Source: a virus. From it: DNA of 21,978 nucleotides. The notes under the pieces were generated by a model. The model worked only from the letters and a program-made list of their open reading frames with translations, had not been told where the DNA came from and searched no databases. Location of the stretch: positions 1-21,978 of the IMG/VR virus record IMGVR_UViG_3300049489_000354. One strand, 5' to 3'. Below are positions 2,235 to 20,280 of this stretch, in pieces. Both the position numbers and the translations under genes were made by a program. The stretch's first letter is position 1; every line of letters begins with the position of its first letter.

Positions 2235-3784
2235 GCGTATGGGATGACATGGTGCGAGCGCTTCGGACGCCCGTCTCTGGCTTGTTTGCGCTAAACCCTC
2301 TCGACGATCGTTACTATGGCGAGGCGGCTTCGTTCCCGTGGGGCAACACGTCAAGTTCAGGCGCTAGCGTAACTCGAGACTCGGCGCTCAACGTGGCGAC
2401 GTTCTACCGATGCGTGAGTTTGCGCGCGAATGCATTCGCGATGCTGCCGGCGAAGGTGTACCGTCGCGGTAACGGTACGCGGTCTGAAGTTACTGATCAT
2501 CCGTTCGCGCGCGCGCTGCGCCGGCCTAACCCTCGCATGTCTAGCTTTGTCCTTTGGCGTCAGGTGGCGGTAGACCTGATGCTTGCCGGTAACGCATATC
2601 TTCAGATCACGATGCAAGGTCGCGATCTTTGGCTGGTGCGTCTCGACCCTTCGAAGGTCACTAGGAAAGTCACGACATCGGGGAGCGTTGTCTACCTGTA
2701 CCAGCGCGATACAGGGGCTCCGGTGCCGCTTGTCGAAGACGTTGACGTATGGCACTTGCAGGCGTGGTCACCGGGCGGAACGATGGGACTGGGGCTTATC
2801 GACGCGGCGCGCGAGACTTTGGGCATGAGCCTTAGCGCTCAGAGTCACGCGGGCGCGTTCTTCCGTCGGGGCGTAAAACCGTCAGGCGTGTTAGTGCATC
2901 CGCGAACTTTGAAGCCCGCGACTGCTTCCGCAATGGGCGAGAGTTTTGAGCAGAAATACGGCGGCGCGGCCGGTGCCGGGAAGGTGCCGGTGTTGTGGGA
3001 AGGGATGGACTTCAAACCTCTCGCGCTCAACAATCGAGACGCGCAGTTCCTTGAGACCTATAAGGAAGGCGCTATCGGGATCGCGACGTTTTGCGGCGTT
3101 CCTCCGCACATGGTCGGGCAGACAGAACGGTCTACGTCTTGGGGAACCGGCATCGAGGAGCAGCGTTCAGAGTTCGTCACGTTTACCGTGATCCCTGATT
3201 GTGAGCTTTTCGAGGATGAGTCCGAGCGGATCTTTCTTTCGGACCTTGAAATGTACGTTCGCAAGAATCCCAACGTCTTGCTTCGAGGTAAGACTCTAGA
3301 GAGATTTCAGGTGTATCAGATCGGGGTCAATGCGCACATCATGCCGCCGAATCAATGCCGCGAGCTCGAGGAGTGGGACCCGATTCCTGGCGGCGATAAG
3401 TTCCCCGCGGTTCCTGGGGCGACTAACGGAACCGAGGCGACGCTAGCAAAGGCCGCTACGGTGGTGCCGGAGGACTTCGCGCGGGCTGGTGTGTTGGCTG
3501 CTTCGCTTGCGCGTCAGATACTGGGCGTCGAAGTGGCCGCGCTGGCTGCTGCGGCTAAGGACAATGCGTCCGACGCTAACAAGTGGTCGCGTGTTATCGG
3601 CTCGTTCTACGGCCGGCACGCTGCGCACGTTGCGGAAACGCTTGGAATTAGTCACGACGTGGCGGCGGGGTACTGCAAGCAGCAGCAGAAACTTGCAACT
3701 GATGGCGGTGCCGCTGCTTTAGAATCGTGGGTGGAGACTCACAAACCGCGCCTGATGGCGCTAGCGTTACAGGTGGAGGGTTAA
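2231..3784 (+). CDS. Portal protein, HK97 family
   Basis: Forms the dodecameric ring at the unique capsid vertex through which DNA enters and leaves and to which the tail attaches. The HK97-type portal signature is clear: a conserved segment ALNVATFYRCVSLRANAFAMLP near residue 55, then a long core including LMLAGNAYLQI, and a C-terminal part with PPHMVGQTERSTSWGTGIEEQ. Length is 517 aa. After about residue 395 there is a helical, Ala-rich extension containing FYGRHAAHVAETLG, a type of tail seen in many portals of this family. The start overlaps the membrane gene stop by ATGA, and the protease follows after four bases. Confidence 0.93.
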   Translation: MSVWDDMVRALRTPVSGLFALNPLDDRYYGEAASFPWGNTSSSGASVTRDSALNVATFYRCVSLRANAFAMLPAKVYRRGNGTRSEVTDHPFARALRRPNPRMSSFVLWRQVAVDLMLAGNAYLQITMQGRDLWLVRLDPSKVTRKVTTSGSVVYLYQRDTGAPVPLVEDVDVWHLQAWSPGGTMGLGLIDAARETLGMSLSAQSHAGAFFRRGVKPSGVLVHPRTLKPATASAMGESFEQKYGGAAGAGKVPVLWEGMDFKPLALNNRDAQFLETYKEGAIGIATFCGVPPHMVGQTERSTSWGTGIEEQRSEFVTFTVIPDCELFEDESERIFLSDLEMYVRKNPNVLLRGKTLERFQVYQIGVNAHIMPPNQCRELEEWDPIPGGDKFPAVPGATNGTEATLAKAATVVPEDFARAGVLAASLARQILGVEVAALAAAAKDNASDANKWSRVIGSFYGRHAAHVAETLGISHDVAAGYCKQQQKLATDGGAAALESWVETHKPRLMALALQVEG

Positions 3785-3788
3785 TGCA

Positions 3789-4682
3789 ATGATCTACGGG
3801 CTCGAAAGCGGGATATGGGCGCTGGACCGAAAGCTGGTGCAGGATGTCCAGGCCATGAGCGAGGCGGACATCTCGAGAGCGCGTGAGGCCTCGGCGAAGG
3901 CGGCTGAAACGGTCGGTGACCCTGGCGGATCTATCGCGGTCCTGAATGTCCGCGGCGTCATCATGCTCAACGAAGATCACTGGATGATGGATGTCTTCGG
4001 AGGGACTAGCGTAGATGGGCTTCGCTCGCGCGGGCGTCAGGCGATGGCTGACCCTAGCGTCCGAGGCATCTTGCTTAACGTCTTCTCTCCGGGGGGCTCC
4101 GTGTTTGGGCTGACCGAGTTGCACGCTGAAATCATGGACTGGCGCAAGGCGAAGCCGGTGGTCGCGTTCACCCAGGCGGCGCTATCTGGAGGCTACTGGA
4201 TCGCGTCTGCGGCGCATGAGATCGTGTGTCCACCGTCCGGGCTGTGCGGCTCAATCGGCGTCTATACCGAGCACGTAGACACGTCTGAGGCCGAGAAAGA
4301 GGCCGGGGTAAAGCGGGAGATCATCTCGGCCGGCGAGCACAAGGCTGACGGCGTAGACGGCGCTCCGCTGTCAGACGAGGGCCGAGCGGCTAAACAGAGG
4401 CTCGTGGACTATCAGTATGGGCTTTTCACTGGGGACATTGCGGCCGGGCGCGGAATCGAGAGGTCGGCCGTGGTCGAGAACTTCGGGAAAGGCCTTGTTT
4501 TCTCGGCTCCCGACGCGCTGGCGGCCGGCATGGTTGACAAGGTGGGAACAGTCGAGGCGGCTTTCAAAAAGCTGGCGACTCCTCAGGGCAGAGCTGCGTT
4601 GATGAAAGCGGCCATTGATGAGCCTCCGGCCTATGATGGCGAAGCCGAGCGTCGTCTGTTGGAAATGCGCGTTAGAGGCTAA
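3789..4682 (+). CDS. Prohead protease, S49 (SppA-like) family
   Basis: Serine protease that most likely matures the prohead by removing the capsid scaffold domain. The protein (297 aa) has the crotonase-like SppA core: an IAVLNVRGVI strand near residue 50, the oxyanion-region FSPGGSV at about 99-105, the nucleophile S133 in ALSGGYWIAS, and the general base K185 in AGEHKADG. These form the Ser-Lys dyad of phage S49 peptidases. ATG 3789 is chosen because ATG 3784 is followed at once by a stop; a GGAGGG motif lies a few bases upstream. It sits directly between portal and capsid, the standard place. Its substrate is inferred to be the N-terminal domain of the next gene's product. Confidence 0.92.
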   Translation: MIYGLESGIWALDRKLVQDVQAMSEADISRAREASAKAAETVGDPGGSIAVLNVRGVIMLNEDHWMMDVFGGTSVDGLRSRGRQAMADPSVRGILLNVFSPGGSVFGLTELHAEIMDWRKAKPVVAFTQAALSGGYWIASAAHEIVCPPSGLCGSIGVYTEHVDTSEAEKEAGVKREIISAGEHKADGVDGAPLSDEGRAAKQRLVDYQYGLFTGDIAAGRGIERSAVVENFGKGLVFSAPDALAAGMVDKVGTVEAAFKKLATPQGRAALMKAAIDEPPAYDGEAERRLLEMRVRG

Positions 4683-4694
4683 CGATAAAAAGAC

Positions 4695-4724
4695 TTGACA
4701 ACCGTAAAACGGTTAGAGTAAAAA
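4695..4724 (+). promoter_or_regulatory. Putative promoter for the capsid gene
   Basis: A consensus TTGACA (4695-4700) is followed after 18 bases by TAAAAA (4719-4724, four of six matches to TATAAT). It lies in the only sizeable gap of the late operon, just after the protease stop. A small inverted repeat AACCG-TAAAA-CGGTT (4700-4714) lies in the spacer and could be a protein-binding site. Predicted transcription would start near 4731, giving a leader of about 150 bases before the capsid ATG. The -10 match is imperfect. Confidence 0.5.
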
Positions 4725-4726
4725 GA

Positions 4727-4862
4727 AGCCTGTTAGTTAGGCTCCCCGGCTTACATCGGTTCGTCGGGAGAGTGACACGCGAGCTCGCGACGCAATGTCG
4801 CCACCTTGCGGAAATCCAGAAGGCGTTACCTTTTGGGTGACCCGAGGTGAGTCTCGGCACCC
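4727..4862 (+). promoter_or_regulatory. Structured 5' leader of the capsid mRNA (candidate)
   Basis: This non-coding stretch can fold into a chain of stem-loops. AGCCT/AGGCT (4727-4731 with 4739-4743) forms the first. CUCCC(C)G around 4742-4748 can pair with CGGGAG at 4765-4770. GTGACA (4772-4777) pairs with TGTCGC (4796-4801, one G-U) and encloses the 12-base palindrome CGCGAGCTCGCG (4778-4789). GGGTG (4835-4839) pairs with CACCC (4858-4862) around an inner stem CCGAG/CTCGG (4842-4846 with 4853-4857). The capsid Shine-Dalgarno GGGAG (4872-4876) follows ten bases later. I do not recognise it as a known riboswitch class. It may set capsid expression or mRNA stability. Confidence 0.5.
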
Positions 4863-4882
4863 GCTAAAAATGGGAGTCCAAC

Positions 4883-6205
4883 ATGTCCGTGTCATTGCTG
4901 CTTGCGCTTAATGCGCAGGCTGAAGAAATCAAGAGAGAACACGCGGAGGTCCTTGCGCCTGCCGCGAAAGACAAGCGCGCGCTTTCGACTGAGGAGATCG
5001 CCAAGGCGGACGAGCTTCAGGCGAAGCTTGATCGCGTGATCGCGACCCGAAAGCACGAGCAGGCGCGAATCGAGGGCGAGCGAGCCGAGGCTGTTACCGA
5101 GCCCGAAGCGAAGCCAGACGCTACCGACCGAGTGGCGAAGGCTCACGCCGAGGAACGGCGCATCCTGGGATTCGGCAAGTTCCTGCAGGACGTTGCGACG
5201 TTCGCGAAAGACGGAAGCATCGGTCCGACGATCAAGGCCGCGGCGTCCGGGCTTAACACGTCTGTTCCTAGCGAGGGCGGTTTCCTTGTGAGGACGGACT
5301 TTTCCACGATGCTCCTTGATCGCGGCATGACTGAGGCGGTACTTGCCCCGAAGTGCACCACGATCAATATTGGCGCGGATGCGGACGGGCTCGAAGCGCC
5401 CTACATCGACGAAACCTCGCGAGTCACCGGCTCGCGGTTCGGCGGTGTCAGGGTGTACCGCGCGGCCGAGGCCGATACCGTCACGGCATCCAAGCCGAAG
5501 TTCGGTCGTTTCGAGATCCGGCTCGAAGATCTGAACGCCATATGTTACGCGACCGAGCGTAGCCTGCGTGACGCTCAGAGCCTGGGCGAAGTCATCAACA
5601 AGGCGTTTGCTTCGGAGTTTGCCTACACGATCGACGACGAAATCTTGACCGGTGACGGCGTTGGCAAGTGTCTCGGCATTCTCTCCAGCGACGCTACTGT
5701 GTCGGTGGCGAAGGAAGGCTCGCAGGTTGCGGCGACTGTGGTCGCTGAGAACGTCATGAAGATGCATGCTCGGATGCCGGCCAAGCTCCGATCGGGCGCG
5801 GAGTGGTTCTATAACCAGGACGTGGAGACTCAGTTCCCTCAGCTGCACATCAAGGTCAAGAACGTGGCCGGTAACGAGAACGTCGGCGGGCTTCCGATGT
5901 GGGCTCCGCCTAACGTGCTCGCGCCTTATCACGCGCTGTACGGTAAGCCTGGGACTCCGGTCGAGCAGTGCAAGACCCTCGGCACGGTTGGAGACTTCCT
6001 CTTCCTGAACCTGAAGGAGTATCTCCTCATCAAGAAGGGCGGACTCGAAATCGCCGACTCGATTCACGTTAGGTTCCTCTACAACGAGAAGACCTTCCGG
6101 TTCACGTATCGCATCAATGGGGCTCCGTCTTGGAAGTCGGCGCTCACTCCCGCGAACGGTTCGGCGACTCTCTCGCCGTTCATCTCGCTGGCCACCCGGT
6201 CGTAA
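4883..6205 (+). CDS. Major capsid protein, HK97 fold
   Basis: Builds the icosahedral shell. The 440-aa protein begins with a charged, helical, coiled-coil-like delta (scaffold) domain of roughly 110 residues, rich in Glu, Lys and Ala. The shell domain follows, opening with TSVPSEGGFLVRTDF near residue 124, a typical HK97-family entry into the N-arm. Later it has TERSLRDAQSLGEVINKAFASEFAYTIDDEILTGDG, the long spine-helix region, and a C-terminal IHVRFLYNEKTFRFTYRINGAP. The upstream protease presumably cuts between delta domain and shell domain. GGGAG six bases before ATG fixes the start. The gene has its own promoter candidate and leader, fitting the high expression capsid needs. Confidence 0.95.
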   Translation: MSVSLLLALNAQAEEIKREHAEVLAPAAKDKRALSTEEIAKADELQAKLDRVIATRKHEQARIEGERAEAVTEPEAKPDATDRVAKAHAEERRILGFGKFLQDVATFAKDGSIGPTIKAAASGLNTSVPSEGGFLVRTDFSTMLLDRGMTEAVLAPKCTTINIGADADGLEAPYIDETSRVTGSRFGGVRVYRAAEADTVTASKPKFGRFEIRLEDLNAICYATERSLRDAQSLGEVINKAFASEFAYTIDDEILTGDGVGKCLGILSSDATVSVAKEGSQVAATVVAENVMKMHARMPAKLRSGAEWFYNQDVETQFPQLHIKVKNVAGNENVGGLPMWAPPNVLAPYHALYGKPGTPVEQCKTLGTVGDFLFLNLKEYLLIKKGGLEIADSIHVRFLYNEKTFRFTYRINGAPSWKSALTPANGSATLSPFISLATRS

Positions 6206-8742: not shown

Positions 8743-8912
8743 AACTGACATCTAAGGTCGAGGCTGGAGAGCTTCCAGGCTACGGCGGGATCTTCATTCC
8801 TGCGGCCGGCGAAACGTTCGAGACAGACGACGACACGGCGGCGCGAATGATCGCGGCCGGCTTGGCAATACCTAACAAAAAGGCCGAGAAGGCCGAGAAG
8901 AAGGAGAAGTAA
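8739..8912 (+). CDS. 57-aa accessory protein before tail tube
   Basis: A short protein starting MKLTSKVEAGELPGYGGIFI and ending in a Lys/Glu-rich tail (NKKAEKAEKKEK). The central GETFETDDDTAARMIAAGLA resembles a small motif common in phage proteins of this position, where a strand, an acidic turn and a helix ending in 'A.GLA' form a compact fold. The function is not known; a structural or assembly role with the tail tube is plausible. The gene is real by context: ATG overlaps the tail terminator stop (ATGA), and its TAA is followed immediately by the tail tube ATG. Its 3' end also carries the GGAG ribosome-binding site of the tube gene. Confidence 0.7.
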   Translation: MKLTSKVEAGELPGYGGIFIPAAGETFETDDDTAARMIAAGLAIPNKKAEKAEKKEK

Positions 8913-17745: not shown

Positions 17746-18203
17746 GTCTCGATGTAATCCTGTCTCGGACCGACGCGCTCGATATACACGCGGTATGACT
17801 CCGAGAAGACATTTGATGCCTTGGTCAACACGACTCCAGGCTCGCGCCCGACTTCGGCGCTAACTCCCTGAGCACGTATCGCGATCACCACTGCCGCGGT
17901 GTACTGGTCGATTCTGACGTTGACGGGTATCCCCACGGCTCGCAATACCGCCCAATGGTAGACCGGTGACTCGGCTCGACACGGCGGTTCCGGTGTAGGC
18001 GTCGCGGTTGGCGTCGGCGTTGCGGCCGGTGTTGGCGCGGGTGTCGGCGCAGGCGTCGGCGTGGGCGTAGGGGACGGATCGACGGCGGCACGCTGAGCAT
18101 CTGGCACAAGCGCGGCGAGTGGCTGGATTGACGCCACCGATGGTGCTACCGGCGATGAGCAGGCAGCGGCGAAGGCGGCGGTAACGGCTAGCGTGAGTCT
18201 CAT
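17724..18203 (-). CDS. Lipoprotein with Pro/Thr linker and C-terminal domain
   Basis: A 159-aa exported protein. A short signal sequence (MRLTLAVTAAFAAAC) ends at a Cys followed by SSP, suggesting lipid anchoring, although the AAA-C box lacks the usual Leu at -3. Residues about 43-74 are almost entirely Pro, Thr and Ala, an extended linker able to span a cell wall. The C-terminal domain of about 85 aa has Cys at each end (EPPC and ETC), perhaps a disulfide, with strands such as YRVYIERVG; I do not recognise it. ATG overlaps the NinB-like stop (ATGA), preceded by AAAGGA. Possible roles are superinfection exclusion or cell-surface change; an outer-spanin role is less likely. Confidence 0.65.
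   Translation of the reverse strand: MRLTLAVTAAFAAACSSPVAPSVASIQPLAALVPDAQRAAVDPSPTPTPTPAPTPAPTPAATPTPTATPTPEPPCRAESPVYHWAVLRAVGIPVNVRIDQYTAAVVIAIRAQGVSAEVGREPGVVLTKASNVFSESYRVYIERVGPRQDYIETCRPAQF
17990..18072. repeat. GGC/GTN-type imperfect short repeat (Pro/Thr linker DNA)
   Basis: On the + strand this reads as near-repeats of GGCGTCGGCGT and GGTGTNGGCG-type units, encoding the Pro-Thr-Pro-Ala linker on the - strand. Imperfect six-base periodicity makes slippage and length variation between relatives likely. Confidence 0.7.
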
Positions 18204-18589
18204 AAAATCCTTTCGTCTGCGGGGAGGTAAATTCCATTCTCGTTTAAGAGCTTCTCTGCCTTGTTTTGGAGCTCGGCGAATTGAGCCGTGGTCAGATCCT
18301 TAGTTGATGGCTCCTGAATCTCTTCGATCGTGTGACCGTTCGGAAGCGTCCGCGTCACCGTCCTGGGGCCGAGGATCATCGCCTTTAGTGTGCGATGCGC
18401 GGAGTCCTTTAGCGCCGCCAAGTCGCGCTTCTCGAGGTGCTCCGGGTATGACTCATATCCTGTCCAGTCCGCAAAGGCCGGTACGATGAGTGCCCAATAG
18501 CGGGAATTCTGGCGCAGGGTCCGGCGGCGCGCCTCGCTCTCGACCGTCACCGTCAACGGCTCGCCTGGCTTGAACCGCGCGAAGTCCAC
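18200..18589 (-). CDS. NinB-like recombination protein
   Basis: A 129-aa protein with the layout of the NinB/Orf recombination-mediator family: an early VTVESEARRRTLRQNSRYWALIVPAF (compare 'RSLDQN..LWA' in lambda NinB), a helical middle, then STKDLTTAQFAELQNKAEKLLNENGIYLP, close to 'STS.M...EFAEL' near the end of NinB. Such proteins bind single-stranded DNA and assist recombinase loading. It follows the ERF and exonuclease genes, consistent with a recombination set. GTG 18589 is preferred because GGGAGGG lies six bases upstream; the longer frame runs into the exonuclease gene. A TTG about 25 codons upstream is the main alternative. Family assignment is moderate. Confidence 0.6.
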   Translation of the reverse strand: MDFARFKPGEPLTVTVESEARRRTLRQNSRYWALIVPAFADWTGYESYPEHLEKRDLAALKDSAHRTLKAMILGPRTVTRTLPNGHTIEEIQEPSTKDLTTAQFAELQNKAEKLLNENGIYLPADERIL

Positions 18590-18594
18590 GGCGA

Positions 18595-18613
18595 CCCTCC
18601 CGGCATATGCCGG
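18595..18613 (-). promoter_or_regulatory. Palindrome overlapping the NinB-like ribosome-binding site
   Basis: A perfect 14-base palindrome CCGGCATATGCCGG (18600-18613) ends within the Shine-Dalgarno GGGAGGG (18601-18595, - strand). As RNA it could form a CCGGC/GCCGG hairpin with an AUAU loop and partly hide the ribosome-binding site. It could also be a DNA operator. Confidence 0.5.
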
Positions 18614-18671
18614 ATGGGGGCAGATAACCCCGCGGTTAATCGTGGCCGGGAAGGTTGTCTTCAAGCGTGGT

Positions 18672-19247
18672 TCATACGCGGTAGCGGGCGACGATTCCCG
18701 CCACTTCGGCGAGGAACTTCTCGACCTCGGCCTCGGCCATCGCGATCCAGGCGTCATCTCGGACCAATCGCGGGGCGATCCAAAGCCGGGAAGGCTCCGG
18801 CATCCGAACGTCATAGCTGGCGAAGTCTGACCATTTCCGCTCGGGATAGCAGGCTAACTGCCATTGCATTTGTGGGACGTGTTCGGGCGGTACGACTCCA
18901 TCAATCATCCAACCGACATGCGTCGCGGTGTTCGGGCACTTGATTTCGAGGATGCCTTCGTCGCCGATTTCGCCATCGGCCGACGCGCCGGACTCGAGCC
19001 GCGGGTGTGACCTGCCGGGGAGCTTATCCACGAGCTGTCCCGTGGCTGCCTCGTAGGCCGCGCGTGCGAAGGGCTCCTGTTCTGATCCCCATCGCATCGC
19101 ATCGGACTCGTAGGATGGCGCATACTGCCCCGTCAGGCGCTCGGCGACCAGTTGATCCCGGAGGGAGGCGCGGGTCTTGCCCTTGCCTTTGGCAAGGACG
19201 GCGGATATCTGCGATGCGCGGACGCGGCCAAGGCCTGCCGGGTTCAT
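18672..19247 (-). CDS. YqaJ-like phage recombination exonuclease
   Basis: 5'-3' exonuclease of the lambda Exo/YqaJ family that resects double-stranded ends so that the annealing protein can load. At 191 aa it is of normal length. The motifs are MRWGSEQEPFARAAYE (residues 51-66, E56/E58), then ASADGEIGDEGILEIKCPN with the metal-binding D91 and E101 and the catalytic K103, and VPPEHVPQMQWQLAC, where the Gln-x-x-x-Gln helix of this family lies. The ATG overlaps the ERF stop in ATGA, so exonuclease and annealing protein are translationally coupled, as expected for interacting partners. The protein appears intact. Confidence 0.9.
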   Translation of the reverse strand: MNPAGLGRVRASQISAVLAKGKGKTRASLRDQLVAERLTGQYAPSYESDAMRWGSEQEPFARAAYEAATGQLVDKLPGRSHPRLESGASADGEIGDEGILEIKCPNTATHVGWMIDGVVPPEHVPQMQWQLACYPERKWSDFASYDVRMPEPSRLWIAPRLVRDDAWIAMAEAEVEKFLAEVAGIVARYRV

Positions 19248-19963
19248 GCCTTCGCCTTCGCCGGCAGATCGTGACCGGCATAATCAGCCTCCTCTTGATC
19301 GCTGCCAAACGGATTAGGGCCTTTGGCTTGTTTTCGCGGAGGCGGCGTTAGCTTCGCTTTCATGGCGTCCTTGACGGTGGTCAGGTGGCGCAGTGCGTCC
19401 TGATCGTCTCCGCAGGCCTTTACGGCCAACTGCCACACCGTCTTCAGGGCTTCAAGCGTATCGGCGCCCTCGATGGCTGCCTGATGATTCGCGCGGGCAG
19501 ATTCGGACATCCGCTCGGGCTCAGGGGAGACCTTGCCGCTCGCGCTGTTCCCGTCGTCGTCGGCCTGGGCGACGCCTACGATGGACGCCAAAGCGTACCG
19601 GCGGGCGTAGGTGATCGCGGAGCCGATGCCTTGTGGGGTCACCATTGCCGGCTGTCCCTTCTCGACGACGGACGGGATCACGGGGACATCCAGGGTTGAG
19701 CGCGACCATTCGCCCGACGAATGAAGAAGGATCGTTTCGACCGAGACGAGGACCGGGGACGCGCCCTGTACCGTCTCAACGTTCTGGACGATGGAGAGTC
19801 CGTGCTTTGAGAGCGCGGGGCGGATCGCGTCCCAAACGCTCGCAAGGTCGGCGTATTTCGAGCGGAAGAAGGGATTCGCTGCGCCCTTAGCTGCGAAGGT
19901 TATCTCGCCCTGGGCCTTGGAAAGCGCCTCGGCAAGTGCGGCGATTGATGGCGACGTGTTCAT
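19244..19963 (-). CDS. erf: ERF-family single-strand annealing protein
   Basis: Recombinase that anneals complementary single strands, partner of the following exonuclease. The ERF signature is present: a start helix SIAALAEALSKAQGEI, then NPFFRSKYADLASVWDAIRPALSKHGLSIVQ, and the conserved TPQGIGSAITYARRYALASIVGV followed by ADDDGN. A variable linker and C-terminal part follow, ending in NPFGSDQEEADYAGHDLPAKAKA, a likely protein-interaction tail. I chose ATG 19963, giving 239 aa: it is preceded by GGGGGA and overlaps the upstream stop by one base (TAATG). The longer frame would overlap the upstream gene extensively. Confidence 0.92.
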   Translation of the reverse strand: MNTSPSIAALAEALSKAQGEITFAAKGAANPFFRSKYADLASVWDAIRPALSKHGLSIVQNVETVQGASPVLVSVETILLHSSGEWSRSTLDVPVIPSVVEKGQPAMVTPQGIGSAITYARRYALASIVGVAQADDDGNSASGKVSPEPERMSESARANHQAAIEGADTLEALKTVWQLAVKACGDDQDALRHLTTVKDAMKAKLTPPPRKQAKGPNPFGSDQEEADYAGHDLPAKAKA

Positions 19964-20280
19964 TAGAATGTCCCCCGTCCTTCGCCGATGTGGTTCTCGT
20001 ATTGAGAAACGACCCAGTTCCCAAGCGCCCATTTCTGCGAGTCGGGGATCGCCGGATCGCGGCGCAGCGTTATGTAAGTGTGATACTTCTTCGCGCCTGT
20101 CTTGTCCTGATACTGACGCGAAGGGAATGAGGCGTAGTAACCCGGCCCGTCCTTCTTTCGCCAGATGGCGATGGAGTTGATCTCGAATCCCGCGAGGGGG
20201 CCACAGTCCTCGTGGAATTCGATGGCGGCCTCGGCGACTGGGCCTTTGTCCTTGGGAGTGAATCGGCAGGTGATGGTCAT
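19963..20280 (-). CDS. 105-aa protein with SpoVG-like motif
   Basis: A small protein directly before ERF. The segment GFEINSIAIWRKKDGPGYYASFPSRQYQDKTGAKKYHTYITL resembles the strand-loop pattern of SpoVG-type nucleic acid binding proteins ('G..I....DG..V..PS++'). Whether it binds DNA or RNA here is inference. The C-terminal WALGNWVVSQYENH looks helical. ATG 20280 is chosen because AAAGGAC lies seven bases upstream and an ATGA overlap with another frame's stop is present; a longer frame to 20430 exists but mixes with the preceding small gene. It joins ERF by a one-base overlap. Confidence 0.6.
   Translation of the reverse strand: MTITCRFTPKDKGPVAEAAIEFHEDCGPLAGFEINSIAIWRKKDGPGYYASFPSRQYQDKTGAKKYHTYITLRRDPAIPDSQKWALGNWVVSQYENHIGEGRGTF

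Follow-up and report, generated by a model that had tools for sequence, protein, structure and literature searches.

Genes and features at the capsid locus

The window analysed here is the whole of a 21,978-nucleotide stretch of viral DNA, IMG/VR record IMGVR_UViG_3300049489_000354. Comparison with Pfam and PHROG identified on this contig a row of genes for the terminase large subunit, the portal protein, an S49-type protease and an HK97-type capsid protein. The protease and capsid genes are separated by 200 nt (positions 4683-4882), the largest intergenic gap of the window. An earlier note on this DNA had taken it for the sole large gap in an overlapping late operon; this does not hold, since the ORF coordinates leave further gaps of 136 nt (2095-2230) and 170 nt (8743-8912). 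A group of recombination genes (NinB/Orf-like, exonuclease and Erf-like annealing protein) is found on the minus strand at 18200-20032, convergent with the late operon. The features in and around the gap are collected in Table 1.

Table 1. Genes and predicted elements around the capsid leader of the window (L numbers denote related loci; classes A and B are defined in the text).
Feature	Position	Strand	Basis
S49-type head maturation protease gene, upstream of the gap	3789..4682	+	Pfam PF01343, 3.2e-33; PHROG head maturation protease
Promoter-like TTGACA-18-TAAAAA for the capsid transcript	4695..4724	+	Sequence; TTGAC conserved in relatives
Stem-loop AGCCTGTTAGTTAGGCT, at or close to the predicted start of the capsid mRNA	4727..4743	+	Folding
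Second stem-loop, located where related leaders have their first hairpin domain	4741..4773	+	Folding; alignment position only
Antiterminator-like hairpin	4778..4810	+	Folding compared with class A; alignment with L004 and L002/L093
Terminator-like hairpin CACCTTGCGG...CCGAGGTG, -26 kcal/mol	4802..4849	+	Folding
Alternative hairpin GGGTG.CCGAG / CTCGG.CACCC, directly 5' of the Shine-Dalgarno sequence	4835..4862	+	Sequence
Shine-Dalgarno sequence GGGAG, six bases before the capsid ATG (4883)	4872..4876	+	Sequence
Major capsid gene, HK97 fold, Phage_capsid	4883..6205	+	Pfam PF05065, 1.9e-31; PHROG major head protein

A probable internal promoter conserved in related phages

The promoter-like sequence that the earlier note had placed in the gap is present. 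Its TTGACA (4695-4700) agrees with the consensus at 6/6 positions and is followed, after 18 nt, by TAAAAA (4719-4724), a weak -10 box with 4/6 matches; it was missed by our promoter scan because the scan demands a final T in the -10 box. Exact TTGACA occurs 13 times in the contig, both strands counted, and only two of the other copies have a 4/6 -10 box at a spacing of 16-18 nt. Searches of IMG/VR with the capsid sequence provided 139 distinct loci with related capsids. About 40 related phages have a leader before the homologous capsid gene, non-coding and roughly 150-220 nt long in the close relatives, and all members bearing the element are uncultured metagenomic contigs. The closest leaders form two groups: class A, the window's own group (16 leaders, the window included), and class B, a second group of 10 whose capsids begin with MTKRH. 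TTGAC is located 110-260 nt 5' of the ATG in 15/16 class A leaders (again with the window) and 9/10 class B leaders, where 1.2 and 0.7 would be expected; together this makes 24 of 26 leaders against about 1.9 expected. This recurrence, in surroundings whose sequence diverges, supports the earlier proposal that the capsid gene of the window has a putative internal promoter.

The spacing of the two boxes is 16-19 nt in other relatives. In seven cases (L016, L007/L101, L010, L017, L057, L020 and L004), TTGACR stands only 7-8 nt before an extended -10 element (TGnTAnnnT), 5' of the capsid leader. At this distance the motif cannot act as a -35 box in these seven relatives, and their conserved TTGACR is perhaps a protein-binding site.

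Terminators before the capsid gene of the relatives

We scored a leader as terminator-bearing when a hairpin of -22 kcal/mol or better was accompanied by a U-tract 15-75 nt before the capsid ATG. Intrinsic terminators were found by this criterion in 38 distinct leaders, with hairpins of -23 to -54 kcal/mol and U-tracts 20-70 nt from the ATG, while the same test on control gene starts from the same loci was positive in 5/192 cases. Nearly all members have a strong hairpin that ends close to the Shine-Dalgarno sequence. When extra sequence lies between the protease and capsid genes, as in L007 and L016, the leader stays with the capsid gene. Exact-pattern scans of IMG/VR retrieved the class B hairpin in 9 contigs and the class A terminator in 8, in every case once per contig and only at the capsid-leader site. 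Only one of these contigs, L216, was not among the capsid loci already known, and there too a capsid gene lies directly 3' of the match.

Two other arrangements were seen beside capsid genes. In L132, three consecutive hairpins with CUCCGUCGAG tops occupy the stretch about 30-110 nt 5' of the capsid start codon (ATG at 2753), and single hairpins in L117, L077, L047 and L033 resemble them. In L211 and L212 (Bradyrhizobium sp. Leo170 and Ai1a-2), before position 3602, a diverged pair of capsid-like genes stands in tandem with about 35% identity; the intervening stretch of about 160 nt contains a terminator-like hairpin with T6 beside the second Shine-Dalgarno sequence.

Mutually exclusive pairing and covariation

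The leaders examined for alternative pairing came from every subgroup of relatives. In these, the terminator's 5' arm has two possible partners, one forward, within the terminator, and one on a strand located further upstream. Since one strand is common to both structures, the upstream hairpin excludes the terminator. The consensus fold of class B obtained with RNAalifold corresponds to the antiterminator form. Its upstream hairpin, D2, starts at the top with a tetraloop on a closing C-G pair, followed by a helix of four base pairs, a bulged G that never varies and six more pairs; then come an internal loop, asymmetric with GAGA facing A, and the outer helix GCAGC/GCUGC. A hairpin of the same design, D1, is located 5' of D2. 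In the class B alignment 93% of the cells are paired, and two-sided changes occur in 15/35 pairs, a result reached in 0/500 shuffles; when the partners were slid as a control, at most 8 pairs had two-sided changes. The comparison of L023, L030 and L035 reveals a triple covariation, in which the shared strand carries G, U or C and both of its partners carry C, A or G, respectively. The bulged G of D1 is kept in 9/10 class B sequences even though D1 lies outside the terminator, and this suggests D1 as a putative binding site.

Independently of any alignment, antiterminator pairing gave a weak signal (Fisher p 0.006, with no single locus below 0.05), and the antiterminator claim therefore rests on the class B covariation and the shared strands. 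The strand that follows the U-tract is complementary to the loop side of the terminator (Fisher p 5e-10 for 38 leaders combined, a value uncorrected for relatedness). In six class B leaders (L023, L030, L035, L060, L085 and L088) this strand (GCCCGG or a close variant) has a second possible partner in a CGGGC-like strand directly before the AUG. Such a pairing would enclose the Shine-Dalgarno sequence, which makes an additional translational layer possible in class B.

The leader of the window

The gap of the window is strongly folded, with a minimum free energy of -74.5 kcal/mol compared to -56.6 +/- 4.6 kcal/mol for shuffled sequences (z -3.85, 0/200 shuffles). Among 219 segments of 200 nt taken along the contig, the most structured begins at 4701 and the next at 4683. 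Folding recovered at least four stem-loops, as had been claimed (the first four hairpins of Table 1). The antiterminator-like hairpin has an outer helix CGCGAG/CTTGCG and an inner helix GCGAC/GTCGC, a two-part form also seen in the antiterminator hairpin of class A. It holds CGCGAGCTCGCG, the 12-base palindrome that had been reported within an enclosing helix; the palindrome alone is unremarkable, because several are expected in 22 kb. In the predicted folds of this single leader, the hairpin and the terminator-like hairpin overlap at 4805-4810. The latter is without a U-tract, AGTCTCGGC coming after 4849, and a terminator scan found no plus-strand terminator in the window leader. The possible alternative hairpin next to the Shine-Dalgarno sequence is the counterpart of the post-U-tract strand of the relatives; its duplex (-17.5 versus -13.4 +/- 3.2 for shuffled sequences, p 0.11) is not significant by itself. 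On the minus strand, a terminator-like hairpin followed by T-rich sequence (4747-4723) overlaps the first leader stem-loop, and sites of this kind are about as frequent as expected by chance.

In a capsid tree made with a quick method, the window belongs to a 16-member clade with 100% support, of which 13/16 members have a terminator leader. The best identity of its capsid to that of a relative is 57%. Two covariance models were used for searching: R1, built for class B, and R2, built for class A. The confident matches of R1 are class B leaders only. With R2, class B leaders were detected in their correct position (E 0.008-0.14), a result that connects the two classes. Neither model scored the window leader above background, even with filters off. 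For this reason the window leader is filed in neither class by these models; what ties it to the family is its location, its promoter, the architecture of its hairpins and the capsid phylogeny. Two other relatives, L020 and L112, are also devoid of the U-tract, and L020 keeps pairable strands just 5' of the Shine-Dalgarno sequence. The earlier suggestion of a cis-regulatory RNA element is thus borne out by the covarying antiterminator/terminator leaders of the relatives, and is weaker for the window, where neither model matches and the U-tract is absent. Similarly, the compensatory changes in homologues that had been proposed as a check are present in the relatives, while the window aligns too poorly for covariation to be followed pair by pair.

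Comparison with known elements

A search of Rfam 15 (4227 families) with the window and 20 related loci returned nothing above the gathering threshold. Rfam families also include structured leader RNAs in phage DNA, yet none of them matches, and this agrees with the earlier impression that the leader is unlike any recognised riboswitch family and may be undescribed. Cultured phages have no DNA similarity to the window. Among cultured phages with distant capsids, the leader measures 86 nt in Kronos and TMCBR2, which infect Caulobacter, and is short in the Pseudanabaena phage Pan4; no terminator was seen by eye in any of them. In 297 Acidobacteriota genomes there were 4 capsid relatives, and visual inspection revealed the element in none of these.

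Bacterial attenuators of the BglG/LicT type, which work with an RNA-binding antiterminator, have a promoter and then a hairpin that lends its 3' strand to an intrinsic terminator as the 5' arm, with the gene following. The leaders of the relatives have a similar general layout; they differ in standing before a phage capsid gene and in having tandem hairpins with a conserved bulged G. The literature searched, largely open-access, describes no earlier case of a capsid gene preceded by an attenuator. Attenuators are a known kind of element, and one that is dedicated to a phage capsid gene and contains tandem hairpins with a bulge is undescribed in Rfam and in that literature.

Proposed mechanism and alternatives

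We propose that the capsid leader functions as a transcription attenuator in this phage group, and that the leader of the window is a diverged read-through form of it, a reading to which we give a probability of about 0.6 from sequence comparison. In the relatives, RNA polymerase would start just 3' of TTGACA and synthesize one or two hairpin domains. The next strand could then pair backward, giving the antiterminator hairpin, or forward, giving a GC-rich hairpin which with the U-tract would terminate transcription intrinsically. As long as the upstream hairpin persists, RNA polymerase would carry on and reach the capsid Shine-Dalgarno sequence; on read-through, the post-U-tract strand would pair with the former loop side of the terminator. 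The balance would be tipped by some factor, for which a phage protein that binds the bulged hairpins is the likeliest candidate. The window keeps the promoter and counterparts of these hairpins and has lost the U-tract. We therefore consider that its leader has probably diverged into a read-through version with the role of a structured 5' UTR: transcription would initiate, produce a highly structured 5' UTR and read through into the capsid gene, with hairpins presumably descended from the switch.

Several other explanations have to be weighed against attenuation. Hairpins behind a promoter could simply constitute a plain 5' UTR, stabilising the mRNA or keeping the Shine-Dalgarno sequence open. 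This would fit the hairpin end near the Shine-Dalgarno sequence in nearly all members, as well as the fact that the window, L020 and L112 have no U-tract and that L020 retains pairable strands, and it may describe what is left in the window. For the relatives, neither strong terminators before a major structural gene nor covarying exclusive pairings would be needed for stability, and we regard a plain 5' UTR as a possible, not a favoured, explanation. It is improbable that the locus encodes a stand-alone small RNA about 150 nt long, with read-through into the capsid gene being secondary. A promoter, a compact structured RNA and a terminator do make a complete small RNA unit in the relatives; however, the element occurs only directly before the capsid gene and ends 20-70 nt from its ATG, its strands pair near the capsid ribosome-binding site, and the window is without a terminator. 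Antiterminator/terminator pairs are also typical of leaders controlled by ribosome-mediated attenuation through a leader peptide. An upstream ORF with a Shine-Dalgarno sequence is not conserved here, being absent in 24/26 leaders, and this mechanism is for that reason disfavoured, to the point of being very improbable.

Processive antitermination would dispense with switching hairpins altogether and would rely on a Q- or GafZ-like protein, or on a put-like RNA, in the style of lambda pR'/tR' or the Caulobacter GTA promoter. In lambda Q and GafZ antitermination, an antiterminator protein has its binding site between the -35 and -10 boxes. The overall layout is alike, with a promoter, a long untranslated stretch and a terminator before structural genes, and the distance of 7-8 nt between TTGACA and the extended -10 element in seven relatives could mark a protein site. 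Precedents exist: in Caulobacter, late-gene antitermination by GafZ involves a promoter, an untranslated stretch and a terminator ahead of structural genes (PMC11150451), and HK022 put consists of two adjacent stem-loops, one of them bulged, soon after a promoter and with terminators downstream (PMC9378689). The put element serves early genes and acts on distant terminators (PMC9378689), whereas the second hairpin and the terminator share a strand in our leaders, which are likened to put by general layout only. By contrast with the lambda Q and GafZ systems, which are located at the start of the late cluster, the element described here stands between the protease and capsid genes, and an RNA switch is conserved. 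Processive antitermination would leave unexplained why an upstream strand covaries with the terminator arm, and we consider it unlikely.

Beyond attenuation as such, the leaders may represent an undescribed family of phage RNA switches controlling the capsid gene, in which the tandem hairpins with their bulged G and internal loop bind a phage protein, and from which the lineage of the window escaped by terminator loss. We regard this extended version as tentative and somewhat unlikely. If it is true, the candidate ligand would be the capsid protein itself or an assembly factor, and capsid transcription would be coupled to assembly or to the stage of infection; the phage of the window would then be one of several lineages free of this control. 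The defined leader RNA could serve as bait for the regulator, and the losses in the window, L020 and L112 provide natural controls. Tailed phages make capsid protein in large excess over other products of the late operon, and this is usually ascribed to promoters and translation. A conserved attenuator placed solely before the capsid gene would constitute a distinct and testable layer of control.
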